Of a stretch of 21,055 bases of DNA, positions 1 to 21,055 are shown one piece after another. The notes below the pieces were generated by a model that was not told the origin of the DNA, ran no database searches, and worked only from the letters and a program-made list of their open reading frames with translations. Origin of the DNA: Leuconostoc kimchii IMSNU 11154 (GTDB lineage: Bacteria; Bacillota; Bacilli; Lactobacillales; Lactobacillaceae); the NCBI RefSeq assembly GCF_000092505.1, contig NC_014131.1:1-21055 (forward strand). Direction: 5' to 3'. Made by a program: the position numbers and the translations under genes. Numbering within the stretch: position 1 is the first letter of the stretch; each line of letters starts with the position of its first letter.

Positions 1-831
1 ATTGGTAGTGGTTACGTTGGTATGGAAATTGCAACTATATTATCCGCTGCTGGTTCTAATGTAACAATGTTACAACGGTCAGATCGTCCTTTGCGCGATT
101 TCGATAGCCGACATGTTGATATGCTTATTAAAAACATGAAGGAAAATCTTGGTATTGACTTCCGTTTCAATACTCAGGTTACTAAAGCTGAAAAGACATC
201 AAATGGAATTCTAGTTACTACTGATAATGGTCAAAATTTAGAATTTTCAACTGTTATTAACGCTACTGGTAGAATTCCAAATATTAATGCTCTTAACTTA
301 GAAAATACAAAAGTTGATTTTGATAAAGATGGTGTGATTGTTGATAAGTATTTAAGAACAACTGCTTCTAATATCTATGCCATTGGAGATGTTATTAAAA
401 AGGATATTCCTAGATTAACTCTAACTGCTCAGTTTGAAGGTGCTTATTTAAGTGCTTACTTACTCGGGAAGAAGAAAAGTGAAATTCATTATCCTGTTAT
501 TGGCAAAGTTACCTTTACTTTTCCTCAACTTGCTTCTACTGGAGTTGATATTGACCAAGCTCGCCTTGATCCAAATCTCACAGTTAAGGATATTGATATT
601 TCAAAGGGTGATTTTCTCTACGCTGGCACTAATGACTATAATGCTCATTTATCACTTGTTTACGATCAGAATCAAAGAATTATAGCAGCATCAGAAATTA
701 GCCAAACTGCCAGTGATGATATCAATATTTTTATACCAATTATAGCGTTAGATATCGACCAAAATCTCTGGAATGAAAAAATGGTAATGTCTTTCCCATC
801 ATTAGCGTTTAAGTTACGAAATATATTATAG
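1..831 (+). CDS. FAD/NAD(P)-dependent disulfide reductase, C-terminal part (continues from 20549-21055)
   Basis: This is the 3' 276 codons of a gene whose 5' part lies at the end of the window; the reading frame is open from base 1 and stops with TAG at 829-831. It begins inside the NAD(P)-binding Rossmann motif IGSGYVGME, then carries the second FAD motif (YAIGDV, near base 375) and a C-terminal interface domain (VTFTFPQLASTGVD). The fold is that of class I pyridine nucleotide-disulfide oxidoreductases such as glutathione reductase, mercuric reductase and lipoamide dehydrogenase. The C-terminal signature HPTxxE that holds the catalytic His-Glu pair in glutathione reductase is replaced by MSFPSLAF, so the substrate is probably not glutathione handled in the usual way. 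Joined length is 445 residues, normal for the family. The substrate is unknown; the neighbours suggest a thiol or persulfide role. Confidence 0.9.
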   Translation: MGSGYVGMEIATILSAAGSNVTMLQRSDRPLRDFDSRHVDMLIKNMKENLGIDFRFNTQVTKAEKTSNGILVTTDNGQNLEFSTVINATGRIPNINALNLENTKVDFDKDGVIVDKYLRTTASNIYAIGDVIKKDIPRLTLTAQFEGAYLSAYLLGKKKSEIHYPVIGKVTFTFPQLASTGVDIDQARLDPNLTVKDIDISKGDFLYAGTNDYNAHLSLVYDQNQRIIAASEISQTASDDINIFIPIIALDIDQNLWNEKMVMSFPSLAFKLRNIL

Positions 832-4313: not shown

Positions 4314-4444
4314 AAAAATACTCCTATACTTTCATTTTACGGACTGAATAAAAATAGTCCATTTTTTTAGTATAAGAGCATGTATTGAGTATAAAACAGC
4401 TAGATTAAATCGGCTACTAGTGAAAACATAAACCGCCTTTCTTT

Positions 4445-4630
4445 TCAAATCACAAATTCTTTGTTTTTAAGTAATTCTTTTTGTTTCTTACCGATGGCAT
4501 AAGTATAAATGGCCATTAAGAGTTCTTTCTTGTCGGGATCTTTTTCGTTTAAAGCAATATCCATTAATACTTGTAAGTTTGTTTTTTCAGCTTCCAAAAA
4601 CAACTTTTCAAAAATATTTTTATCAGCCAT
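4445..4630 (-). CDS. Small hypothetical plasmid protein, 61 residues
   Basis: I choose the ATG at 4630 because AAGGAG precedes it at the right distance on the minus strand; the longer frame back to 4702 has no such site. The product starts MADKNIFEKLFLEAEKT, is charged and predicted helical, and has no recognisable motif, cysteine or membrane segment. It is divergent from the relaxase gene across the oriT region, a position often held by small mobilisation-accessory or copy-control proteins, but nothing in the sequence proves this. Two possible minus-strand -10 boxes (TATAAT) lie at 4671-4676 and 4707-4712. Function unknown. Confidence 0.65.
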   Translation of the reverse strand: MADKNIFEKLFLEAEKTNLQVLMDIALNEKDPDKKELLMAIYTYAIGKKQKELLKNKEFVI

Positions 4631-4740
4631 AATTAAGCTCCTTATTGCATTTAAATTGATATCTAATTGAATTATACTAACAAGCAAAATAATCCGCCAC
4701 AATTTTATTATACACTTACGTTTACAGATTATTTTAATGT

Positions 4741-5010
4741 GGTTAAGCTGACACCAGCTTGCCCCACGCGGGTAGCGTTCTGCATGACATGCTCTCGCTG
4801 ACGGCGATCATGCAATGATAAAGTGCCCCGTCACGGCGTGACCCGCCGGAGGTTTTTCTAGCCGGATAATAGGCGCCGGAAAATAGCAGTTCCCCCAGAA
4901 GGAGGGGGCAACGCTACTGTCATCGCTTGTCGATGACGCGCCTCGCAGAGCCTGTCCAAAATATCATTTTGGTATAACAGGCTATACCAGATTTTTAACG
5001 GTGTTATACT
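4741..5010. other. GC-rich leader and origin of transfer (oriT) region
   Basis: This gene-free stretch is much richer in G+C than its surroundings and full of hairpins. They include GTCAC/GTGAC (4830-4842), CCCCC/GGGGG near 4892-4908, CATCG/CGATG (4921-4935), and a distant pair GTAGCGTT/AACGCTAC (4772-4779, 4910-4917). At the relaxase end, GTGTTATACT (5001-5010) resembles the pMV158 nick region GTGTG/TTATAC, so the predicted nick is between 5003 and 5004. It forms an 8-bp inverted repeat with GTATAACA at 4972-4979. In pMV158 the mob promoter overlaps oriT; TGTTATACT here has the same form of an extended -10. Confidence 0.75.
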
Positions 5011-5045
5011 GGTCTTGGAAAACCTTTTTCGAGGAGGCATTTTTG

Positions 5046-6281
5046 ATGGCGCATTTAAAGAAAAATACCCGTGGCGCAGTACCCGGTTTAGCGGTTCACT
5101 TTGAACGTAAAACCGACCATCACACGAACAAAGAAATTGATGTGTCGAAATCCTATCTGAATCAAGATCTCATGGCGGATGGTTCTGATATGGTCTCCCG
5201 ATTCAATGCGCGTTTAAATGACGTTTATTGCATGAAAAGAGACGATGTGAAGGCGTTAGCGACGTGGATAGTCACTTTACCTGAAGAACTCACAGAAGCC
5301 CCCTACGAGCAACAGAGCGCCTTTTTTGAAGCAACCACTAATTTTCTGAATGACCGTTATGGCCAAAAAAATGCTGTGGCCGCTGTGGTGCATTATGACG
5401 AGACAACCCCTCACTTACACTATGCCTTTGTCCCCGTCGTTTTTGATGATAAAAAGTCACGTTATAAAGTCTCCGCTAAAGAAGTACTCACGCGCCATGA
5501 TTTACAAACCTTTCATGAGGATCTAGATCAAGACTTAAAAAAGGTGCTGCCTTTTTATGAACAAGGGATTTTAAATAACAAAACCTTACCGTTTGAGAAT
5601 GTCGCTGAAATCAAAAAATACAATGATCAGTTTAATGCCTTAAAAAACGAACTAGCTGACGTTGAAGACAATATTAGGGCTAAACAGGCCGTACTTAAAA
5701 TCACGGATCAAGCCTTAACAGAAGTAGACTTAGCAGAAAAACAAATTGATGCCTTTAAACAAGACTTATCTAAAAATATATTTGGTAAGACGGTGCTTAA
5801 ACCAGATGACTTAGATCGCTTCAAAAACGTGTTAGCCACGATGAAGAAAGCCACCTTACAAAGCCAGCATGAGACAGAAGAGCTCAAGCAAACGTTAGGC
5901 CAAGTCCAAGCGCAATTAGGAGACGTCCAAGCAGACTATCAAAACCTGAAAGAAACGCATCAAGCGCTACAGAAGCGGCAACGAGAACAGCAACAGCTGG
6001 ATTATGCTATGCGTGACATGCTTAAAAATGATTATGGTGTCGACAAGCTATCGCATACTGATATGGAAGCTCGGTCTGTTCTTTATAAGCTGGATCATGA
6101 AGAACTCACTCAAAATAAAAAAGTAGCCCAGTCCTGGTTAAAAACACTGACGACAGCTAGAGCAGATCCAGATACGAAAATAGCGCCAACTAGATTAGAT
6201 CGCGGTATTGAACAAGTTAAAGCATTAATCAATCGAATCATTGAATTAACGCGTGATATTTTTAAGGGGCCAAGTCTTTAA
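5046..6281 (+). CDS. mob: MobV-family relaxase (Mob/Pre plasmid mobilisation protein)
   Basis: I set the start at 5046, giving 411 residues, because GAGGAGG (5031-5037) lies at the right distance and the conserved N-terminus MAHLKKNTRGAVPGLAVHFE follows. The signature HYDETTPHLH (H116 to H125) is the metal-binding motif of the MobV/Pre family that nicks oriT and pilots the strand during mobilisation. Residues about 195-350 form long coiled-coil helices (QTLGQVQAQLGDVQADYQNL), which is usual for the C-terminal half. The predicted nick site lies about 42 bases upstream of the start, so the protein should act in cis and could autoregulate. No conjugation apparatus is present: the plasmid would be mobilisable, not self-transmissible. 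Confidence 0.93.
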   Translation: MAHLKKNTRGAVPGLAVHFERKTDHHTNKEIDVSKSYLNQDLMADGSDMVSRFNARLNDVYCMKRDDVKALATWIVTLPEELTEAPYEQQSAFFEATTNFLNDRYGQKNAVAAVVHYDETTPHLHYAFVPVVFDDKKSRYKVSAKEVLTRHDLQTFHEDLDQDLKKVLPFYEQGILNNKTLPFENVAEIKKYNDQFNALKNELADVEDNIRAKQAVLKITDQALTEVDLAEKQIDAFKQDLSKNIFGKTVLKPDDLDRFKNVLATMKKATLQSQHETEELKQTLGQVQAQLGDVQADYQNLKETHQALQKRQREQQQLDYAMRDMLKNDYGVDKLSHTDMEARSVLYKLDHEELTQNKKVAQSWLKTLTTARADPDTKIAPTRLDRGIEQVKALINRIIELTRDIFKGPSL

Positions 6282-6287
6282 CGTTAT

Positions 6288-6317
6288 AACGGCTTATTTG
6301 CCCGTATAAGCGTTTTT
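6288..6317 (+). terminator. Terminator after mob
   Basis: AACGGCTTAT (6288-6297) pairs with ATAAGCGTT (6306-6314) with one bulged G around an 8-base loop, followed by a short T-run. It begins 7 bases after the relaxase stop codon. Confidence 0.6.
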
Positions 6318-6427
6318 AGCTACGAAACGTAGAAATAGTCATCAAATAGATTAAAACGTCTCTATCAGCTTAATAAATGGCAATTATGTTAGATAACTAG
6401 GTAGTCGGCATTTGAAATGATTCAACA

Positions 6428-6480
6428 CAAAAAGAGCACCACGTACAAAATTTATGTGCACCAGTGTTCTTTTTGTTTTG
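6428..6480. terminator. Strong hairpin between mob and the origin, probably bidirectional
   Basis: CAAAAAGAGCAC (6428-6439) pairs with GTGTTCTTTTTG (6464-6475) with one G-T wobble, and an inner GCACC/ACGT-rich stem extends it. T-runs follow on one strand and A-runs precede on the other. The rest of 6318-6594 is AT-rich with no gene that I can support, and probably contains the melting region of the origin. Confidence 0.7.
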
Positions 6481-6594
6481 TTTTTTATTGATTGAATAAA
6501 AAGGCGAAGCCTATTATAAGTTTATCTTTTATATTTTAATCTTTTGTTCTTTTGCGCAGTTATAAAGTCAGTATTATCAAGGTTTAACAGGATC

Positions 6595-8526: not shown

Positions 8527-11500
8527 ATGAAGAATTTTGATAATGTGAATGAACGAGTAATAGACGATTTGAGGCAAGAAATTAAGTCTCATAGCAAAAT
8601 AAAAATAGCAGCTGCATCTTTTTCAATCTATGCGTATGAGGCACTTAAAACCGAATTAGAAAAAACAGATGCTGTTCAATTTTTGTTTACGAGTAATTTA
8701 TTTACGAAAGAGAAAGTGCCTAATGAAAAAAGAGAGTTCTTTATTCCACGGTTAAATCGTGAGAGTCAGTTATACCGCGATGGCTTTGAACTAAAAATAC
8801 GAAATGAGCTATCTCAAAAAGCCATTGCTAAAGAAGTTGCAGAATGGATTGAGCACAGAGTTACCTTTAAATCAAATATATCTGGTAAACAATCAGATAA
8901 TTTTATGATCATTAATAGCAAAAATGATACCAATGTATACTTACCGATTGATGAATTTACAACATCTGAATTGGGTGTATCTCAAGGGGAAAAACTTTTT
9001 TATAATATTTCAAAGTTTGAAAACGAAAATACACAGCGATTTCTGAATGCATTTGATCAAGTGTGGAATAATCCCGATTACGTTGATGAGGTTACTAATA
9101 CTGTTTTAGATAATATAACAGCTGCCTATCAAGAAAATGCGCCAGAATTTATCTATTACCTTGCGTTATACAATATATTTAGTGAGTTTTTGTCAGATTT
9201 GGACGCAGAATATTTGCCAGATGAACGTACCGGATTTAAAGAGTCAAAAATTTGGTCACTTTTGTATGATTTTCAAAAAGATGCGGTTGTGGGTGCGATT
9301 AGCAAATTAGAGAAACATAATGGGGTGATTTTGGCGGATTCTGTTGGGTTAGGGAAAACATTTTCTGCCATAGGCGTGATTAAATACTATGAATCCCGTA
9401 ATAAAAATGTTCTTGTCTTATCTCCTAAGAGATTGAAAGATAACTGGAATAATTACAAGAATAATTATAAAAACAATCCCCTAGCTGAAGATCGATTACG
9501 GTATGATGTCTTATTTCATACTGATATGGACAGAGAACAAGGCGAAAGTAACGGAATTGATCTTGGGAAAATAAATTGGGGAAACTACGATTTAGTTGTG
9601 ATTGATGAAAGTCATAATTTCAGAAATGGTGATGGCACAACTCATAAGAAGAATGATGGATCTGAAAATCGTTATCAAAAATTAATGCGTAAAATTATTA
9701 AGACAGGTGTTAAAACCAAGGTGCTGATGCTTTCTGCAACACCAGTTAATACTGATTTTTCAGATTTACGCAACCAATTGATGCTATCTGCAGAAGGTGA
9801 CAGTGATACTCTAACTCAGAGTTTAAACACCAAAAATTCTGTTACAGAAATTTTTGCACAAGCACAAAGGGCATTTAAAGAGTGGTCGCAATTGGATGTT
9901 TCCAATCGTACAACAGAACAGCTGCTTGATATGTTGGATTTTGATTTTTTTGAATTACTAGATAGTGTCACAATTGCCCGTAGTCGTAAGCATATTCAAA
10001 AGTATTACGATAAGGAAGCCATTGGCAACTTTCCGAAAAGGTTGACTCCCATCAACAAGAGCCCTAAATTAACAGATTTAGATATATCATATAATCAAAT
10101 TTTCTTGTTTATTGATCGTCTTAACCTAGAAGTGTACAATCCTCTACAATACGTCTATCCATCTAAAATTAGTAAATATATTGATGAAAGCCGTCCAAAC
10201 GCAGCTAGCTGGGGAAATCGTGAAAAAGGTCGTAACCAATTGATGGTTACTAACTTATTGAAACGAGCGGAAAGCTCAATTTATAGTTTTCGATTAACTA
10301 GCGAACGGATTTTAAGCAACATTGATCATAAATTACAAACCATCGCCAATTATGAGAAATATAAGCAAGGCATCATTGAAAATATTGAAGATGATTTTGA
10401 AGAGGATACGTTTACAGTCGGTAAGGATCTAAAAATTGACTTAGCTGATATGGACTATCGATCATGGCGTGAAAAACTATTAGTTGATCAAAATGTTTTC
10501 ATGGAATTATTAAATTTAATTCAGGTAATTACACCAGATCATGATGCTAAGTTATCAGAATTAACAGCATTAATTCGCAATAAAATTGAACATCCTATTA
10601 ACGCTAATAATCATAAAATTATTATTTTTACAGCCTTTTCAGATACGGCAGACTATTTGTATAACTATCTATCAGATAGACTCAATCAAGTTGGTAACCT
10701 ACATACGGCTTTGATTTCCGGAAGTAGAACGGCTACTACCGTTTCAGATGTAGGAAATGACTTTAATACGTTACTCACATTATTTAGCCCCAAATCTAAA
10801 AATCGTGACGCCTTAGGTTTGCATGGTGAAATTGATGTCATCATTGCAACTGACGTCATTAGTGAAGGTCAAAATCTACAGGATGCAGACTATTTAATTA
10901 ATTATGACATTCATTGGAATCCAGTCCGTATTATTCAAAGATTTGGCCGAATTGACCGTATTGGTTCAACGAATGATGTTATTCAAATGGTGAACTTCTG
11001 GCCAGATATTAGTCTCGATGAGTATATTAACTTAAAAGCGCGCGTTGAAAATCGTGCCAAACTAGTGGCTGTATCGTCAACAGGTGAAGATACCATTGAT
11101 AATACAGATCCAGATATGGCCTATCGTAAAAAGCAACTTGAAACGTTGCAAAATGAAGTAGTTGATTTAGAGGATATGTCTAGCGGTGTCAATATTATGG
11201 ACTTAGGTCTTAATGAGTTTCAACTTGACCTGCAAAAACTGCGCGAGAAATATGGTGATTATGAGGCAAAACCATATGGAATTCATGCGATAACCCAATC
11301 TGATAATAACCATCCAGCGGGTGTTATTTTTGTTTTAAAAAATCACAATAATGCCATGAATATTGATAAACAAAATCGATTGCATCCATTTTATTTAGTC
11401 TATATCGATGAAAATGGTGAAGTAGTCTCAAGTCACTTTAACCCCAAAAAAGTTCTGGATGACATGAGATATCTTTCTAAAGATAGATCACTACCTATTG

Positions 11501-11721
11501 AGAATCTCACGCAATCATTCAATATAGAGACCCGTGAAGGAAAAGAGATGAGTAAGTATTCTAATTTATTGAATCAAGCAATTGATTCAATGATCAATGG
11601 TAAAAAAGAAAAAGATATTGATAGTCTCTTTACGACGGGAGGCACCACAGCTTTAGAAAATGATATCAGTGGGTTAAATGATTTTGAATTAATTGATTTT
11701 CTGGTCGTTAGAGGTGAATAA
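8527..11721 (+). CDS. SNF2-family helicase/translocase with PLD-like N-terminal region
   Basis: The protein has 1064 residues. Residues about 15-165 resemble the phospholipase-D-like domain seen in front of many bacterial SNF2 proteins (IKIAAASFSIYAYEALKTEL), but no HxKxxxx(D/N) motif is visible, so that part is probably non-catalytic. Superfamily 2 motifs follow: Walker A DSVGLGKT (about 273-280), DESH (360-363), SATPVNT, and IATDVISEGQNLQDADYLIN with QRFGRIDRIG (about 805-814). It heads a tightly packed operon: the next gene starts directly after its stop. I infer an ATP-driven DNA translocase supporting the Mod-Res pair downstream. The ribosome site is weak and the 33-base gap from the rep operon has no clear promoter. 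Confidence 0.9.
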   Translation: MKNFDNVNERVIDDLRQEIKSHSKIKIAAASFSIYAYEALKTELEKTDAVQFLFTSNLFTKEKVPNEKREFFIPRLNRESQLYRDGFELKIRNELSQKAIAKEVAEWIEHRVTFKSNISGKQSDNFMIINSKNDTNVYLPIDEFTTSELGVSQGEKLFYNISKFENENTQRFLNAFDQVWNNPDYVDEVTNTVLDNITAAYQENAPEFIYYLALYNIFSEFLSDLDAEYLPDERTGFKESKIWSLLYDFQKDAVVGAISKLEKHNGVILADSVGLGKTFSAIGVIKYYESRNKNVLVLSPKRLKDNWNNYKNNYKNNPLAEDRLRYDVLFHTDMDREQGESNGIDLGKINWGNYDLVVIDESHNFRNGDGTTHKKNDGSENRYQKLMRKIIKTGVKTKVLMLSATPVNTDFSDLRNQLMLSAEGDSDTLTQSLNTKNSVTEIFAQAQRAFKEWSQLDVSNRTTEQLLDMLDFDFFELLDSVTIARSRKHIQKYYDKEAIGNFPKRLTPINKSPKLTDLDISYNQIFLFIDRLNLEVYNPLQYVYPSKISKYIDESRPNAASWGNREKGRNQLMVTNLLKRAESSIYSFRLTSERILSNIDHKLQTIANYEKYKQGIIENIEDDFEEDTFTVGKDLKIDLADMDYRSWREKLLVDQNVFMELLNLIQVITPDHDAKLSELTALIRNKIEHPINANNHKIIIFTAFSDTADYLYNYLSDRLNQVGNLHTALISGSRTATTVSDVGNDFNTLLTLFSPKSKNRDALGLHGEIDVIIATDVISEGQNLQDADYLINYDIHWNPVRIIQRFGRIDRIGSTNDVIQMVNFWPDISLDEYINLKARVENRAKLVAVSSTGEDTIDNTDPDMAYRKKQLETLQNEVVDLEDMSSGVNIMDLGLNEFQLDLQKLREKYGDYEAKPYGIHAITQSDNNHPAGVIFVLKNHNNAMNIDKQNRLHPFYLVYIDENGEVVSSHFNPKKVLDDMRYLSKDRSLPIENLTQSFNIETREGKEMSKYSNLLNQAIDSMINGKKEKDIDSLFTTGGTTALENDISGLNDFELIDFLVVRGE

Positions 11722-12279
11722 ATGATAGTAGATATTCCAAAACAGGCCGTTGTAAATCGCATTATTCCAAAAGATAGGTTTAACTTTGAAGATGCTAAAA
11801 AAATTGAACGTATCCGTTGGGTGGGTAAACTTGCGCCTAATACGATTAATCTGCCTGCTAAAAAAATACAGGAAATTGAGGTTTTTAGTGTTGAAATGCC
11901 CGACTTTGATTTAAATGTTATTAAAGAGATTGTCACTAAAATACCGCAAGAAATTTTATTCATCGTCAATGGTGAACTGGGCATCATGTATTATCTAGAT
12001 CAGTTTATTTCTAAAAAAGTGGCTGATAAACTTCAACTGAACGGTTTATCGATTGATGATGTTCGCGATAACTTTATTCGCCAATTGTTAGATATTACAG
12101 ACATCTCAAAATCTTTGAAACAACAAGTTGAAAAAATACAGCTAATGCATGAATTAGAATCTGAAATAGATCGGATCAACAATAAGATTAAAAGAACGGT
12201 CCAAATTAATAAAAAACAACTTTTGGCTAGAGAAAGATATGCACTAGAGCAGCGTTTGGCCAAAGTTAAAGGAGAATAA
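11722..12279 (+). CDS. DUF4391-family protein
   Basis: The protein has 185 residues and matches DUF4391. The family-like stretch FNFEDAKKIERIRWVGKLAP is followed by NTINLPAKKIQEIEVFSVEM and IPQEILFIVNGELGIMYYLD. The C-terminal third is charged and helical (ELESEIDRINNKIKRTVQIN), a likely interaction surface. DUF4391 proteins recur next to SNF2 helicases and type III methyltransferases, but their biochemical role is not known to me. No nuclease or nucleotide-binding motif stands out. The start codon abuts the stop of the helicase gene, with GAGGTGA just before, and mod begins three bases after the stop, so all are co-translated. It may be a bridge or specificity factor between the translocase and the modification-restriction complex. 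Confidence 0.85.
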   Translation: MIVDIPKQAVVNRIIPKDRFNFEDAKKIERIRWVGKLAPNTINLPAKKIQEIEVFSVEMPDFDLNVIKEIVTKIPQEILFIVNGELGIMYYLDQFISKKVADKLQLNGLSIDDVRDNFIRQLLDITDISKSLKQQVEKIQLMHELESEIDRINNKIKRTVQINKKQLLARERYALEQRLAKVKGE

Positions 12280-12282
12280 GAA

Positions 12283-14142
12283 ATGCCCGATATACCAGAA
12301 AAAATTAATTTATCTAACGTTAATTCACGTCAAGTCAATCCTGAATTATTGAATGAATTACGTGATTTATTTTTCAAAGCAGAAGAACAAAAAGAACGTT
12401 ACGATTTTACGTGGAACGGAAAAGCAAAATCCTATTTTGAAGCTGCAGCGCCAACGACCAAAACATTACGTGCACAGCCAGAAGAAAGTGTGAATTTTGA
12501 AAAATCGGAGAATCTATTTATTACGGGGGATAATCTTGAAGCATTGAAATTATTGCAAGAATCGTATCTTGGAAAAATAGATATGATTTATATTGATCCA
12601 CCCTATAACACAGGCAAGGACTTTGTTTATCAAGATAACTTCAAAAAAACGCAAAAAGAAAATGACTTATCAGAAGGAATTATAGATGAAGAGGGGAATC
12701 GATTAGTAAAGAATGAAAAATCCAATGGGCGCTACCATTCTGATTGGTTAACTATGATGTATCCTAGATTGAAGTTGGCGCGTAATTTGTTATCGGATAC
12801 AGGTGTTATTTTTGTCTCTATAGATGATAACGAACAAGCAAATTTAAAATTATTAATGGATGAAATATTTGGTGAGGATAATTTTGTTAATAGATTTACT
12901 TGGGTCAATAAAAAAGAAGGTAGGTCATTAAAAAGTAAGGGTGCCAAATCTACATCTGAGCTCATCTATGCATACGCTAAAAATATTCAGTTAATTAATG
13001 AATTTAGTGCTAATACTCAGGATTTGAATAAATTAATGCCTACAATTTATTCTGATACAAACAATAAAATTTCTTTTGATGACAAGGGACCATACTTAGC
13101 TACTCATGAGTTATATAATGGGAATTCTGCATTTAACGAAGAGACTCGTCCTAATTTAGTATTTAATATTTGGTATAGGGAAGAGGACAAATCTGTTGTA
13201 TTTGAAAATCCGTATTCTCAATCATACGTATTAATAACTCCTCATAAAAATTCAGATGGCAGACACAAGTATCATGCCTATCGATGGTCACAGGAAAAAA
13301 TTAAAAATGAGATAGATGATTTATTATTTGTTAAATACAATGACACCTATAAAATTTTTACAAAAAGAAGAGAATTTGCCAATACTGTAATAAAAGATCT
13401 AATCACTGACATTCCCACAAACCAAGGGACTAGGGATTTACGTAAACTTGGAATTAACGAGTTTGATTTTCCAAAACCGGTAAGTCTTATTAAATTTTTG
13501 ATTCAAATATCTAGTCAATATAATTCAACTATTTTGGATTTTTTTGCTGGTTCAGGAACAACAGCAGAATCGGTGATGGCAATTAATCAACAGGATCAAG
13601 GTTCTCGAAACTACATTCTGATCACATTAGATGAATTACTTGATCAAGAGAACAAATACACCACTATTGATCAGATTTCTCGAGAACGCATTCGTCGTGC
13701 TGCTAAAAAAATTAGTGATACAAGTGGGTTCCGTGCCTTAAAGGTGGATTCAACAGGTTTAAAAGAAGATGTCTTTAAAACAGCTGGTGAACTCGATCAA
13801 GTAGATTTGCTACAAGATATTGATAATCACTCTGATAACCGTTCAGATTATGACTTACTCTATGACGTATTAGTAGATGGTGCGTTAGAATATAATCGAC
13901 CAATTACGATTGACACGATGAATGATGAACAGATTATCAAATATGATTATTTAGGCGAATTATCGGGGGTAGTGTGCTACTTCGGTGAAAACCTAACAGA
14001 TGAGTTAACCCGCCAAATTGCCACACTCAAACCTTTGATTGCAGTTTTCAAAGAATCAACGTTTGATAAATCAGCTCAAAAGGTAAATGTGATGGAGCAG
14101 TTCCGGATTATCAGTCCTGATACGAAAGTTAAGGTAATTTGA
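12283..14142 (+). CDS. mod: Type III restriction-modification DNA methyltransferase (Mod subunit)
   Basis: The protein has 619 residues, close to M.EcoP15I-type enzymes. The catalytic motif DPPY (105-108, in YIDPPYNTGKDF) comes before the AdoMet-binding motif FAGSGTT (421-427), the order of beta-class amino-methyltransferases, which predicts N6-adenine methylation of one strand of an asymmetric site. The region between (about 200-410) is the target-recognition domain and is least like family members I can recall; specificity cannot be predicted. GGAG precedes the start. Mod also guides Res, so the last residues (KVNVMEQFRIISPDTKVKVI) should contact it. The reading frame is intact with no repeat tract that would suggest phase variation. 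Confidence 0.95.
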   Translation: MPDIPEKINLSNVNSRQVNPELLNELRDLFFKAEEQKERYDFTWNGKAKSYFEAAAPTTKTLRAQPEESVNFEKSENLFITGDNLEALKLLQESYLGKIDMIYIDPPYNTGKDFVYQDNFKKTQKENDLSEGIIDEEGNRLVKNEKSNGRYHSDWLTMMYPRLKLARNLLSDTGVIFVSIDDNEQANLKLLMDEIFGEDNFVNRFTWVNKKEGRSLKSKGAKSTSELIYAYAKNIQLINEFSANTQDLNKLMPTIYSDTNNKISFDDKGPYLATHELYNGNSAFNEETRPNLVFNIWYREEDKSVVFENPYSQSYVLITPHKNSDGRHKYHAYRWSQEKIKNEIDDLLFVKYNDTYKIFTKRREFANTVIKDLITDIPTNQGTRDLRKLGINEFDFPKPVSLIKFLIQISSQYNSTILDFFAGSGTTAESVMAINQQDQGSRNYILITLDELLDQENKYTTIDQISRERIRRAAKKISDTSGFRALKVDSTGLKEDVFKTAGELDQVDLLQDIDNHSDNRSDYDLLYDVLVDGALEYNRPITIDTMNDEQIIKYDYLGELSGVVCYFGENLTDELTRQIATLKPLIAVFKESTFDKSAQKVNVMEQFRIISPDTKVKVI

Positions 14143-14176
14143 TGAAAAAGTATCAAGATAGTCTGGAGGAACAGCA

Positions 14177-17100
14177 ATGAAACTGCAGTATAAAAATCAA
14201 CCCTTTCAGCTAGAGGCCGTAGAGTCTGTCATAGCTACTTTTGAGGGACAACCTAGAAAAAATAACATGTCTTATATGATGGATATGGGACATGAAAAAA
14301 ACGTATCTTTAGACATTGTCAATGGATTTAAAAACGCAGATATCACATTATCTGAGAGTGATCTTTTAAAAAACATTCAAGTAACTCAAAAAAACAATGG
14401 ACTAGTAACTGATACTCAGCTAGTTAAAATGGCCATTGGTGGTAGAGATAAAAGTACAAAAATTGATAATTCTCGCGATATTCTAACTTTATCAGTAGAA
14501 ATGGAGACTGGTACAGGTAAGACATATACGTATATCAAGACAATGCTTGAATTAAACAAACAATATGGCTGGTCAAAATTTATCATTGTCGTTCCAAGCG
14601 TCGCCATTCGTGAAGGTATAGCCAAAACATTTGAGTCTACCGCCGAACACTTTAAACAAGCATACGGTGTTGGTGTTCGTTACTTTATTTATCATTCTAG
14701 TCACCTTGATCAAATTGAAGCATTTGCGAGCGATGCAGGTATCAATGTAATGATCGTCAATACACAGGCCTTTAACGCACGTGGAGCTGATGCAAGGCGA
14801 ATCGACATGGTATTAGATCAATTCCGTGGTAGACGCCCTATTGATGTCATTTCAGCAACCCATCCAATAATGATCATTGATGAACCGCAATCGGTTTTAG
14901 GAAATGGGTCAAAAGCTGACCTGAATGCAACACGCGTTGGGTTAGCAAAATTTAATCCTCTATTTTTCATTAATTACTCAGCGACACATCGTGATAACTA
15001 TAATATGATTTATCGATTAGATGCTGTAGATGCCTATCAAAAGAATCTAGTAAAAAAAATCGCGGTTAAAGGGATTGAAATATCGGGTTCCAATGCATCT
15101 AGTGGCTATCTATATATTGAAGCCATTAAAGAGCAACCAACATTAAAGGTACGGATTCAATTTGATAAATTATCCGCTACAGGGAGTGTGGTTAAAACTT
15201 CCAAGTTATTAGATAAAGGCGACAATATTTACCCTATTTCGGGGGAAATAGAATCTTATAAAAGTGGATTTATCATATCAGAAATTAATGCTGTGGAGCA
15301 GTTTGTTGAATTTACTAACGGTATGCGGTTATCTGTTGGTGAAGTCGTTGGAAATACTAACGAGGAAGATTTGAGACGGATACAAATCCGTGAGACCATC
15401 CAATCGCATTTTGCTAAAGAGGAGATTCTATTTAAGCGCGGTATTAAAACGTTGTCCTTATTTTTCATTGATGAAGTATCTAAATATAAAAATTATGATG
15501 CTATCGATGACAAAGGAATTTACGCTACGATTTTTGAGGAAGAATATCTCAATATTGCACGAGATCGATTAGCGGATTCTTTATTAGACGCAAATTATCG
15601 CTCTTATCTTGAACGCGAATTGAAATCTCCTGAAAAGGTTCATGCTGGATACTTCTCAATCGATAAAAAAGGGAAGGCTGTTGATAGTAAAATCAAACGT
15701 GGTAGTGAGTCTAGTGATGATATTTCAGCCTATGACTTGATTATGAAAAATAAAGAGCGGCTTTTATCATTTGAAGAACCTGTTCGTTTTATTTTCTCTC
15801 ACTCAGCGCTAAAAGAAGGATGGGATAATCCCAATGTCTTTCAAATTGCAACGTTGCGTCAATCTTCATCTGATATTAAGAAAAGACAAGAAATCGGTCG
15901 TGGATTACGTTTGGCAGTTAATCAAAATGGCGACCGCCAAGATGCGCAATATTTAGGTGAAAATGAGGTGAAACAAGTAAATGTGTTGACCGTTATCGCC
16001 AATGAGAGTTACGAAACATTTGCTCGAGGTCTTCAATCTGAAATATCTGACGCCATCAAAAATAGACCTAAATTCATCGAACCCAAGCTATTTGAAGGGC
16101 GAGAACTAGTTGTAGAAGATAGCACTGGACAAGTAACTGACAGGATACTGGTTGATAATACTCAGGCAGCTGAAATATGGTCTAGTTTAAAATCAGGCAT
16201 GCTCATCGACAAAAATAAGCAATCGTCTGATACTTATAAAAACCTATCCGCTCCAGAACAATTAGCAGCAATTCAGGATGCCTTAGATGATGATCTTAAA
16301 ATATTCGCACTACCTATTCAAAATTTAATCAATAGTGTATATAGCCCAAAAGATTTGCCGATTGACAATGAGAATAAACGCACTACTTTGAAATTAAATC
16401 GTGAAAAATATGCTAGTACAGAATTTAAAAGCTTATGGTCAAAAATAAACCGAAAGTCTTACTATACCGTCGATTTTGACGATCAAGAAATTATTGAAAA
16501 GTCAATTCAACTTATCAATAAAAATTTAACGGTGAAAACGCTAAAAGCTCGTATTACTGAAGGTAATATGTCCGCGAATGATACGGGAACAAGTTTTACA
16601 GTTAATGATAAGCGAACAACTGATATCGATAGGCCTGTAAACCATGTGAAATATGATTTAATCGGAGAAGTTTCTCAAAATGTAGGGTTACTACGGAAAA
16701 CAGTTGGTTATATTCTAACTGGTATCCACTCAGGACAATTCGCAAAATATCAATCTAATCCTGAAAACTTCATTGTGCAAATTAGCAATATCATTAATGC
16801 TGTCAAAGCACAAAATATTATTTCACATATTGTTTATAACAAGTTAGATGAGGTTTGGGATGAAGATGCAATATTTGCCAATAATGATATCCAAGGTATT
16901 ATGGGGCAAAATGTATTCGATGCAAAAAAACATCTTTATGATAAAGTTCGTGTTGATTCTGAAGTTGAGAAACGCTTTGCTAGCGAACTAGATGTTGAAC
17001 AGAATGTTGAAATGTATGTTAAATTACCTGGTGGGTTCTATATTAATACGCCAGTAGGTAAATACAATCCTGATTGGGCGATTGTCTTAAACGAACCCGA

Positions 17101-17293
17101 TCAGAAGCACGTCTATTTTATTGCCGAAACCAAAGGCGTTTCAGAAAATATTGAACTAAGTTTAAAAGGTGTTGAAAATGCTAAAATCGAATCAGCACGT
17201 CAGCATTTTAAAATCATTTCAAATAGCGAAGTGACCTATGATGTAGTCGATAGCTATGAAAAAATGATGGATAAATTATCTTCAAACATCTAA
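14177..17293 (+). CDS. res: Type III restriction endonuclease subunit (Res)
   Basis: The protein has 1038 residues. Superfamily 2 ATPase motifs include TGTGKT (111-116), DEPQ (235-238), NYSATHRD and QEIGRGLRLAVNQ. A C-terminal PD-(D/E)xK nuclease is visible as NPDWAIV (D966) and FIAETKG (E984, K986). All key residues are present, so it should be active. With Mod it forms the translocating complex that cuts near two inversely oriented unmethylated sites. GGAGG precedes the start, 34 bases after mod. It is somewhat longer than EcoP15I Res. It ends the operon; a strong terminator follows within 50 bases. Confidence 0.95.
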   Translation: MKLQYKNQPFQLEAVESVIATFEGQPRKNNMSYMMDMGHEKNVSLDIVNGFKNADITLSESDLLKNIQVTQKNNGLVTDTQLVKMAIGGRDKSTKIDNSRDILTLSVEMETGTGKTYTYIKTMLELNKQYGWSKFIIVVPSVAIREGIAKTFESTAEHFKQAYGVGVRYFIYHSSHLDQIEAFASDAGINVMIVNTQAFNARGADARRIDMVLDQFRGRRPIDVISATHPIMIIDEPQSVLGNGSKADLNATRVGLAKFNPLFFINYSATHRDNYNMIYRLDAVDAYQKNLVKKIAVKGIEISGSNASSGYLYIEAIKEQPTLKVRIQFDKLSATGSVVKTSKLLDKGDNIYPISGEIESYKSGFIISEINAVEQFVEFTNGMRLSVGEVVGNTNEEDLRRIQIRETIQSHFAKEEILFKRGIKTLSLFFIDEVSKYKNYDAIDDKGIYATIFEEEYLNIARDRLADSLLDANYRSYLERELKSPEKVHAGYFSIDKKGKAVDSKIKRGSESSDDISAYDLIMKNKERLLSFEEPVRFIFSHSALKEGWDNPNVFQIATLRQSSSDIKKRQEIGRGLRLAVNQNGDRQDAQYLGENEVKQVNVLTVIANESYETFARGLQSEISDAIKNRPKFIEPKLFEGRELVVEDSTGQVTDRILVDNTQAAEIWSSLKSGMLIDKNKQSSDTYKNLSAPEQLAAIQDALDDDLKIFALPIQNLINSVYSPKDLPIDNENKRTTLKLNREKYASTEFKSLWSKINRKSYYTVDFDDQEIIEKSIQLINKNLTVKTLKARITEGNMSANDTGTSFTVNDKRTTDIDRPVNHVKYDLIGEVSQNVGLLRKTVGYILTGIHSGQFAKYQSNPENFIVQISNIINAVKAQNIISHIVYNKLDEVWDEDAIFANNDIQGIMGQNVFDAKKHLYDKVRVDSEVEKRFASELDVEQNVEMYVKLPGGFYINTPVGKYNPDWAIVLNEPDQKHVYFIAETKGVSENIELSLKGVENAKIESARQHFKIISNSEVTYDVVDSYEKMMDKLSSNI

Positions 17294-17335: not shown

Positions 17336-17384
17336 AAAACAGCCCCTAACGAATCGATTCGGTTGGTTAGGGGCTGTTTTTTTC
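17336..17384 (+). terminator. Strong terminator of the restriction operon
   Basis: AAAACAGCCCCTAAC (17336-17350) pairs perfectly with GTTAGGGGCTGTTTT (17366-17380) and is followed by a further run of Ts. The loop holds a small palindrome, GAATCGATTC (17351-17360). The flanking A- and T-runs would let it work from both sides. Confidence 0.93.
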
Positions 17385-20548: not shown

Positions 20549-21055
20549 ATGAAAACGTATGATTATACAATTATTGGTAGTGGTCCTTCTGTTTATCGTT
20601 TCCTAGTTGGTATGCAAGGAAGTAAAAAACGGATTTTAGTCGTTGAATCAGATAATTTTGGGGGTATTTGTCCGAATGCTGGTTGTGAACCCAAAATTTT
20701 TTTAGAGGGTGCTATTAAAACCGCTCTTACTTCGAGAGATTTATTAAATAAAGGGATTGAATCTCCAGCTAAGTTAAATTGGAATGATCTAATACTAGAA
20801 AAAAAACGGGTATTTTCTCCTGTTTCAACAAATAATCAACATGCTTATGAAGAATTAGGAGCCGATACTGTTAGAGGCACAGCTAGTTTTGTCGATGAAC
20901 ATACTATTAAAGTTGATGAAACATTAATTACTAGTGATAACTTCATTATCGCTACTGGCTTGAAACCGCGACCAATGAATATTCCTGGTAGCCATCTCTT
21001 CCTAACAAGTGATGATTTCTTTAATATGGAAGACTTACCTGCGACGGTTGCTATT
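20549..21055 (+). CDS. FAD/NAD(P)-dependent disulfide reductase, N-terminal part (continues at 1-831)
   Basis: These are the first 169 codons of the reductase. AAAGGAGG (20534-20541) supports the start. The FAD-binding motif is YTIIGSGPSVYRFL, in which the third glycine of GxGxxG is Val15. The redox-active disulfide is in GGICPNAGCEPK (C41 and C46, four residues apart, as in glutathione and mercuric reductases). IIATGLKPRPMNIPG is the conserved ATG segment. The frame runs off the window end in ATVAI and resumes in the same frame at base 1 with IGSGYVGME. It belongs to the redox operon behind the CxxxxC mini-protein. Substrate unknown. Confidence 0.9.
   Translation, partial: MKTYDYTIIGSGPSVYRFLVGMQGSKKRILVVESDNFGGICPNAGCEPKIFLEGAIKTALTSRDLLNKGIESPAKLNWNDLILEKKRVFSPVSTNNQHAYEELGADTVRGTASFVDEHTIKVDETLITSDNFIIATGLKPRPMNIPGSHLFLTSDDFFNMEDLPATVAI

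Follow-up and report, generated by a model that had tools for sequence, protein, structure and literature searches.

An SNF2–DUF4391–Mod–Res operon in Leuconostoc kimchii: a recurrent gene order and a candidate four-subunit type III restriction system

Genes at the locus

The window, i.e., the whole 21,055-nt stretch of Leuconostoc kimchii IMSNU 11154 analysed here (contig NC_014131.1), carries an operon of four genes encoding an SNF2-family ATPase, a DUF4391 protein, and the Mod and Res subunits of a type III restriction system. Since the window is a whole contig of 21055 bp that encodes a Rep3 initiator and a MobV relaxase, it is a plasmid. All four open reading frames (ORFs) lie on the + strand and start with ATG, with gaps of 0 nt (SNF2–DUF4391), 3 nt (DUF4391–Mod) and 34 nt (Mod–Res); the ORF list thus reproduces exactly the genes, coordinates and gaps of the initial annotation, whose single strong terminator was also recovered. 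The features are as follows.

8527..11721, + strand: SNF2-family ATPase, RapA-like, with SF2 motifs present, 1064 aa (ORF, Pfam, PADLOC and fold match)
8527..9240, + strand: N-terminal part of SNF2, PLD-like when aligned with the sister group and lacking the HxK catalytic motif (the window protein itself gives no Pfam PLD match)
11722..12279, + strand: DUF4391 protein, 185 aa, with an N-terminal alpha/beta domain and a C-terminal helical hairpin (Pfam and model)
12283..14142, + strand: type III Mod subunit, an adenine-type methyltransferase with DPPY then FxGxG, 619 aa (Pfam, PADLOC and translation)
12595..12606, + strand: DPPY codons (Mod residues 105–108), the point at which Mod is cut short in four related contigs of a viral collection
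12883..13722, + strand: variable middle of Mod (about residues 201–480; vs. L. inhae from about residue 81), exchanged between close relatives
14177..17293, + strand: type III Res subunit, EcoP15I-like, 1038 aa (Pfam and PADLOC)
16925..17251, + strand: RE_endonuc (PF19778) nuclease domain of Res, NPDWA...ETK (Pfam)
17336..17380, + strand: intrinsic terminator hairpin, then a T run (−31.1 kcal/mol, z −8.1)

The terminator is absent from the list produced by a simple scan, probably owing to the stem/loop limits of that scan. Promoter-like sites show no excess in the window (39 observed vs. 40.7 expected).

Pfam assigns SNF2-rel_dom and Helicase_C to the SNF2 gene, DUF4391 to the second gene (4e-12, 47 bits vs. 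a cut-off of 29.9), N6_N4_Mtase to Mod (4e-37), and ResIII and RE_endonuc to Res (2e-33). In PADLOC, SNF2 matches PDLC01075 ("C3a139, HKD+Snf2", 1e-114) over residues 8–1061, Mod matches MTase_III (5e-169) and Res matches REase_III (2e-272), while DUF4391 is named by Pfam only. Both Res (7e-69) and Mod (4e-54) are relatives of their EcoP15I counterparts; Mod is a beta-type methylase in which DPPY precedes FxGxG and the target domain is variable, and Res joins an SF2 ATPase to a C-terminal PD-(D/E)XK nuclease. Judged by these sequence-testable features, the Mod–Res part is a known type III system. Between the window and L. inhae, identity is 98% for SNF2 and for Res, DUF4391 matches at 95%, and the 40-residue blocks of the middle part of Mod lie at 10–67%. 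Because Mod specificity has been exchanged under an almost unchanged pair, SNF2–DUF4391 is not tied to one target sequence.

Distribution of the four-gene order

The initial annotation had suggested that SNF2 and DUF4391 belong with Mod–Res and had proposed a search for the same order in other genomes. A single-sequence DUF4391 scan of genome contigs gave one locus only, and a whole-genome family search was used instead, which found DUF4391 in 34 of 398 Bacillota genomes. Among the 35 Bacillota loci fetched, all from outside the window's own genome, SNF2 sequence lies upstream in 34, Mod downstream in 33 and Res downstream in 30, and every miss falls at a contig end. Wherever upstream DNA is present, SNF2 sequence precedes DUF4391, in decayed form in three loci (in pieces in L061, as a remnant in L066 and L067).

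On plasmids, a megablast of the window operon returned 43 records from Listeria, Enterococcus, Lactococcus, Brochothrix and others, 20 of which cover 80% or more of the 8.8 kb at a single location. A tblastn search with SNF2 reached 108 plasmid records, including E. coli, Acinetobacter, Vibrio and archaea. Twelve of these regions were opened, and 11 show the SNF2–DUF4391–Mod order, with Res also annotated in ten (E. coli, A. baumannii, Raoultella, Methylotuvimicrobium, Mycolicibacterium, Methanomethylovorans, Vibrio, Lactococcus, L. plantarum and Paraburkholderia); the Desulforapulum plasmid locus has SNF2–DUF4391–Mod without an intact Res, and the Halalkalicoccus plasmid region has a remote SNF2 without DUF4391. 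As these loci were chosen by SNF2, they are uninformative on how often Mod–Res occurs without it. Overall, this gene order on plasmids extends over Pseudomonadota, Actinomycetota, Thermodesulfobacteriota, Bacillota and an archaeon, and the E. coli version is rare, with a match in 10 of 5426 complete E. coli genomes.

From a viral collection, 76 loci were kept; 40 read SNF2–DUF4391–Mod–Res, with none of the four genes occurring a second time. These contigs may be provirus edges or plasmids and are counted as gene diversity, not as phage genes. Mod and Res both follow in 38 of the 43 DUF4391 loci with 8 kb of downstream DNA; in the remaining five, Mod is cut short (L111, L114 and L138) or the locus is irregular (L174 and L177).

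Since the order recurs in distant taxa, the arrangement exceeds chance, suggesting that it is a widespread form of type III defence rather than a local accident. The occurrence of this order only here is clearly contradicted by the Bacillota and plasmid loci, and its conservation across distant taxa bears out the claim that the pair belongs with Mod–Res.

Several individual loci deserve mention. Four viral-collection contigs have a Mod that stops short at the codons immediately preceding the PPY of the DPPY motif (near position 14538 in L111, 7531 in L114, 5896 in L138 and 14253 in L142), the match ending at window-Mod residue 105 in three of them and at 119 in one. ORFs recognised by eye as serine-recombinase-like follow the broken Mod in L111, L114 and L138, and the L142 contig ends there. 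The break has the appearance of a prophage attachment site lying within mod's catalytic motif; if so, lysogeny would silence the restriction system. In L174, a 684-aa Piwi-domain protein (4442–6496, 2e-16) follows SNF2–DUF4391, with no Mod and with a Res fragment upstream. In E. coli pLAO18 (L093), the operon lies on an IncFIB plasmid and adjoins exonuclease and homing-endonuclease genes, neighbours that we take to be reminiscent of a phage-plasmid.

Gene junctions and embedded genes

The three junctions differ in how often they are widened. Gaps of at least 200 nt occur at 4 of 105 SNF2–DUF4391 junctions (one of the four, in L041, being an artefact of the score filter), at 34 of 96 DUF4391–Mod junctions and at 21 of 88 Mod–Res junctions; the first two frequencies differ with a Fisher p of 4e-9. 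Because SNF2 and DUF4391 are hardly ever split and the other two junctions are often widened, the operon is read as two units: SNF2 and DUF4391 behave as one, Mod and Res as another. Insert content was inspected in the Bacillota loci and the annotated plasmids, with the following results.

DUF4391–Mod, L042 and L062: SIR2 and HerA
DUF4391–Mod, L043: TIR
DUF4391–Mod, L046: DUF4145 and AAA_13
DUF4391–Mod, L049: trypsin-like
DUF4391–Mod, L050: Schlafen-type
DUF4391–Mod, L057: KilA-N, GajA and GajB
DUF4391–Mod, L066: Tmn/YobI-type
Mod–Res, L043, L045 and L046: RhuM
Mod–Res, L049: Bro-N/Fic

PDC-S06 is also among the known or likely defence families embedded in the operon slots. The inserts of L052 and L036 and the 147-aa ORF of L045 gave no family match, and the cargo of L050 (357 aa), L052 (324 aa) and L095 (900 aa) gave no PADLOC match at 1e-10. 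In L061, where SNF2 is in pieces, a single frame (10214–10930) joins the C-terminal part of DUF4391 to a SieB-type superinfection-exclusion domain. New defence genes could readily be sought in the two cargo slots.

The SNF2 protein

SNF2 motifs I, II, III, V and VI are kept in 111 to 113 of the 113 aligned rows, and 261 of 1062 columns are conserved at 90%. An AlphaFold model of the window protein (mean pLDDT 78, pTM 0.62) finds its best structural match in E. coli RapA, with alignments spanning the whole length and TM-scores of about 0.3, which speak to architecture, not detail; further matches are other SNF2 motors, including Mot1.

The N-terminal region was compared with that of a sister group of SNF2 loci (L156, L157, L159 and L172). 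In alignment A3, the H of the PLD column is present in all four sister rows and in 0 of the 43 others; in a wider alignment it occurs in 2 of 107 non-sister rows, which include loci cut off before DUF4391 could be visible. The PLDc_2 cut-off was passed by the N-termini of L156 and L157 (both of the sisters tested) and of L104, L034 matched weakly, and the window protein and five others tested gave none. A plain HxKx4D pattern occurs in 5 of 110 SNF2 N-termini, one being sister L156; the four other matches, judged by position only, fall elsewhere in SNF2. An HKD nuclease was thus not found at the N-terminus of the window SNF2, where HxK is missing from the PLD column and no PLD match was obtained. 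From these sequence features, the window SNF2 is most likely a motor that has kept its ATPase motifs and lost the PLD (HKD) nuclease residues.

DUF4391 and the sister loci

The DUF4391 model (mean pLDDT 91.8) consists of an alpha/beta domain and a helical hairpin. Because only 2 of 211 columns (P6 and K17) are conserved at 90% among 107 sequences, no catalytic set is visible. The best Foldseek match is the type IIL enzyme DrdV (7lo5), with weak scores (E 0.014/0.028, prob 0.93/0.69, TM 0.30, rmsd 13–14), and the VIA-align rows cover mostly the helical hairpin, residues 127–185; for both reasons, no fold assignment is claimed.

The sister loci contain neither a DUF4391 gene nor Mod–Res. Instead, SNF2 is followed by a protein of 1200–1560 aa, which in L156, L157 and L172 is an Eco57I-type methylase followed in turn by a RecF-like ATPase. 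All three of these methylases show sub-threshold PF14335 matches within residues 105–228 (E 1e-4 to 1e-3), and an hhalign comparison of 16 diverse DUF4391 proteins with five sister N-termini gave 94.4% (E 9e-8, 140 columns), as against 0.2% in a control of DUF4391 with SNF2. The DrdV-type enzyme as top fold match agrees with this likeness to the sister methylase N-terminus. Because the sister system has the DUF4391-like domain fused to a methylase and the window has it as a separate protein, DUF4391 is read as a coupler: most likely, it couples a nuclease-dead SNF2 motor to the modification module, with Res doing the cutting.

The four sister loci were not matched to a named system. A CxC-ABC / PbeABCD identity was rejected for them, as no CxC or CxxC motif was found in the ABC ATPases (3/3).

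Co-divergence and selection

Among the 74 loci with all four genes, pairwise distance correlations are 0.925 for SNF2–Res, 0.79 for Mod–Res, 0.79 for SNF2–DUF4391 and 0.77 for SNF2–Mod, and none of these values was reached in 500 permutations. The correlations reflect shared descent and are not proof of contact, and those with Mod are lowered by its variable middle. Between the window and Listeria pLIS29, dN/dS is 0.06 for SNF2 (dS saturated), 0.22 for DUF4391, 0.31 for Mod and 0.08 for Res, and it stays below 0.5 for all four genes in every pair compared.

These values bear on the idea of hitchhiking, i.e., that SNF2 and DUF4391 merely share a promoter with Mod–Res. Mod–Res does persist alone, and other genes also sit within the same operon, as this idea would have it; against it stand the dN/dS values, the unvarying gene order and the tight junction across five phyla, and the SNF2 sequence before DUF4391 throughout the Bacillota loci with upstream DNA. 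Hitchhiking is thus very improbable.

The main rival is a second defence layer, in which SNF2–DUF4391 would use Mod methylation as a self mark only and block unmarked DNA without cutting, through replication or transcription exclusion, independently of Res. RapA- or Mot1-like motors displace proteins, and the RapA fold match, the presence of Mot1 in the match list and the missing PLD nuclease motif all suit such a role. Mod is kept with a broken Res in Desulforapulum L099, Res is frame-broken in L043 and L059, and the known defence-family genes within the operon indicate that layering is common here. However, SNF2 distances follow Res better than Mod (a comparison in which the Mod value is lowered by its variable middle), and the few loci that lack a whole Res look decayed. 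We regard this second layer as rather unlikely.

Proposed mechanism

The preferred model, which is tentative yet may well be right, is a four-subunit type III system in which a nuclease-dead motor, docked on Mod via DUF4391, extends Mod–Res restriction. It starts from the observed gene order, co-divergence, motif retention and loss, and likeness of DUF4391 to the sister methylase N-terminus. Mod would mark host sites and recognise unmarked ones, and Res, as a switch ATPase with a PD-(D/E)XK nuclease, would cut as EcoP15I does. SNF2 and DUF4391 would form a second, tightly paired module, SNF2 being a double-stranded-DNA motor derived from a PLD-nuclease/helicase fusion whose nuclease is dead, and DUF4391 a non-catalytic coupler through which the motor attaches to Mod or to the Mod–Res complex. 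Recruited at unmethylated sites, the motor would move DNA or strip bound proteins, so that Mod–Res reaches a second site and cuts, and would thereby widen the range of what the system restricts. We infer the complex, its docking partner, the motor's action on DNA or bound proteins and the widened restriction.

A bolder version, possible but doubtful, is a hybrid of type III with type I-like pumping, in which Mod recruits, via DUF4391, a nuclease-dead SNF2 motor inherited from an Eco57I-methylase/PLD-helicase system. Such a hybrid would restrict single, "wrong"-orientation or protein-covered sites, and other defence genes would use the operon as a docking frame.

Loci without SNF2–DUF4391

Among the Res-clade places from the Res search with readable context, DUF4391 is present in 30 (three decayed) and absent in 8, by hand count. 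The initial annotation's statement that a normal type III system has only mod and res therefore does not carry over to this Res clade, in which the two-gene form occurs and the four-gene form is commoner (30 vs. 8). In the Res tree, where any locus with a DUF4391 match counts as four-gene, including the decayed L061, L066 and L067, two-gene loci are scattered among four-gene ones, with 6 label changes for "two" and 15 for "four", the latter inflated by 8 "unknown" contig-end loci. Shuffled labels gave values as low in 58 of 500 cases, so that "four" is hardly clustered. Because of this scatter, the SNF2–DUF4391 pair was probably lost several times. One recent loss is seen in L. cremoris pJM1D, with IS712 within SNF2 and both Mod and Res intact.

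Several observations weigh against the coupled model set out above. Recent pair loss has left Mod–Res intact in Lactococcus pUCCL638C, which is ISS1-flanked, and in E. faecalis pE076, where a truncation leaves a 55-aa DUF4391 remnant; L074 keeps 90 aa of SNF2, and its Res is nearly identical to that of the four-gene L038. In these recent losses the Res motifs are intact, so SNF2–DUF4391 is not needed for Mod–Res to be kept and the pair looks accessory. Only the erosion of Res in old losses hints that restriction weakens once the pair is gone. In addition, a narrow DUF4391 profile built from window relatives (A1) gave no hhalign match to the sister domain (0.1%), and the Eco57I methylase beside a related SNF2 in Halalkalicoccus L104 has no PF14335 match.

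The erosion concerns the Res nuclease, which is gone in 3 of 8 in-clade two-gene loci vs. 0 of 40 four-gene loci (1 when the frame-broken L059 is counted), with p of 0.003 or 0.012; these Fisher tests are post hoc, ignore kinship and leave out the outgroups L085 and L086, the 8 unknown and 3 remnant rows. A Res block at about residues 640–740 was considered as a docking site for SNF2–DUF4391, as it has been lost from L089 and from 4 of the 8 in-clade two-gene Res, and all 40 four-gene Res have it. The idea was dropped, as the outgroup two-gene L085 and L086 largely keep the block and its loss mostly accompanies nuclease loss. The Res of L087, L089, L090 and L091 lacks the PF19778 nuclease, and no SNF2–DUF4391 was seen there (L089 lies near a contig end); these are possible nuclease-free Mod–helicase pairs.

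The same losses bear on a control or safety module, in which SNF2–DUF4391 would protect the host by removing Mod or Res from host DNA or by limiting Res in a Mot1-like manner. RapA as nearest fold and Mot1 in the match list fit this idea. An essential safety device should, however, forbid what is seen in L069, L072 and L074, which lost the pair yet keep a Res with intact motifs. Since Mod–Res with intact motifs persists after pair loss, an essential safety role is disfavoured, and we consider this explanation quite improbable.

Neighbouring genes

The open ends of the window (1–831 and 20549–21055) encode complementary parts of a pyridine-nucleotide oxidoreductase (profile positions 155–291 and 1–147), as expected of a circular plasmid cut within that gene, and thioredoxin, DsbA and ArsR-rhodanese genes lie nearby. 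In the plasmid loci L095, L096, L097, L099 and L101, a small HTH (or WYL) gene lies immediately 5′ of SNF2 and is perhaps the operon regulator. The window has no such small HTH regulator gene before SNF2; the preceding gene encodes an HTH protein overlapping rep.

Comparison with known systems

DISARM (DrmD) and BREX type 3 (BrxHII) likewise combine an SNF2 helicase with a methylase. The window SNF2 reaches 147.5 bits against the DrmD cut-off of 610, and DUF1998 (DrmB), PglZ and BrxC gave no Pfam match among the 17 of 23 window ORFs searched. The initial annotation's exclusion of DISARM and BREX thus holds for the searched ORFs. BREX-related type-2 / DUF499 systems, as described in the available parts of two papers (PMC12839542, PMC7641849), comprise an N6 methylase and an SNF2 helicase with an N-terminal HKD domain. 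As far as these parts go, the window shares the methylase and the SNF2 helicase and differs in that the HKD residues are lost and Mod–Res is present; DUF3780 was not found, nor was the DUF499 ATPase among the ORFs searched with Pfam.

The PADLOC entry C3a139 "HKD+Snf2" (PDLC01075) places the window SNF2 family in a defence library already. Its label says HKD, whereas the HxK residues are missing in the window SNF2 and its close kin. The sister loci share the same SNF2 family over its whole length (39–42% identity) with a DUF4391-like domain alongside; in contrast to the window, they have the PLD motif and the DUF4391-like domain fused to a methylase, and no Mod–Res was found in them.

Type III systems as covered in the available part of a review (PMC12707154) do not include SNF2–DUF4391, nor do DISARM, BREX or BREX-related systems, and DUF4391 appears in one paper of the literature searched, as a table row in the part available (PMC7784981). 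No description of an SNF2–DUF4391–Mod–Res operon was found in that literature, a search that most subscription papers, most preprints and REBASE lay outside.

In the textbook view, type III restriction is the work of two subunits and involves methylation on one strand of an asymmetric site; cutting takes ATP and a pair of sites in inverted orientation, and this second requirement limits the system. With EcoP15I (PDB 4zcf), the window operon shares sequence relatives of both Mod and Res, the same motif sets and the position of mod before res; it differs in having the SNF2 and DUF4391 genes before mod. If a widespread type III form does have a dedicated ATP-driven motor, the two-inverted-site limit would become testable, as would part-sharing among type I, type III and SNF2-based systems, and DUF4391, a Pfam family without an assigned function, would gain its first proposed role.

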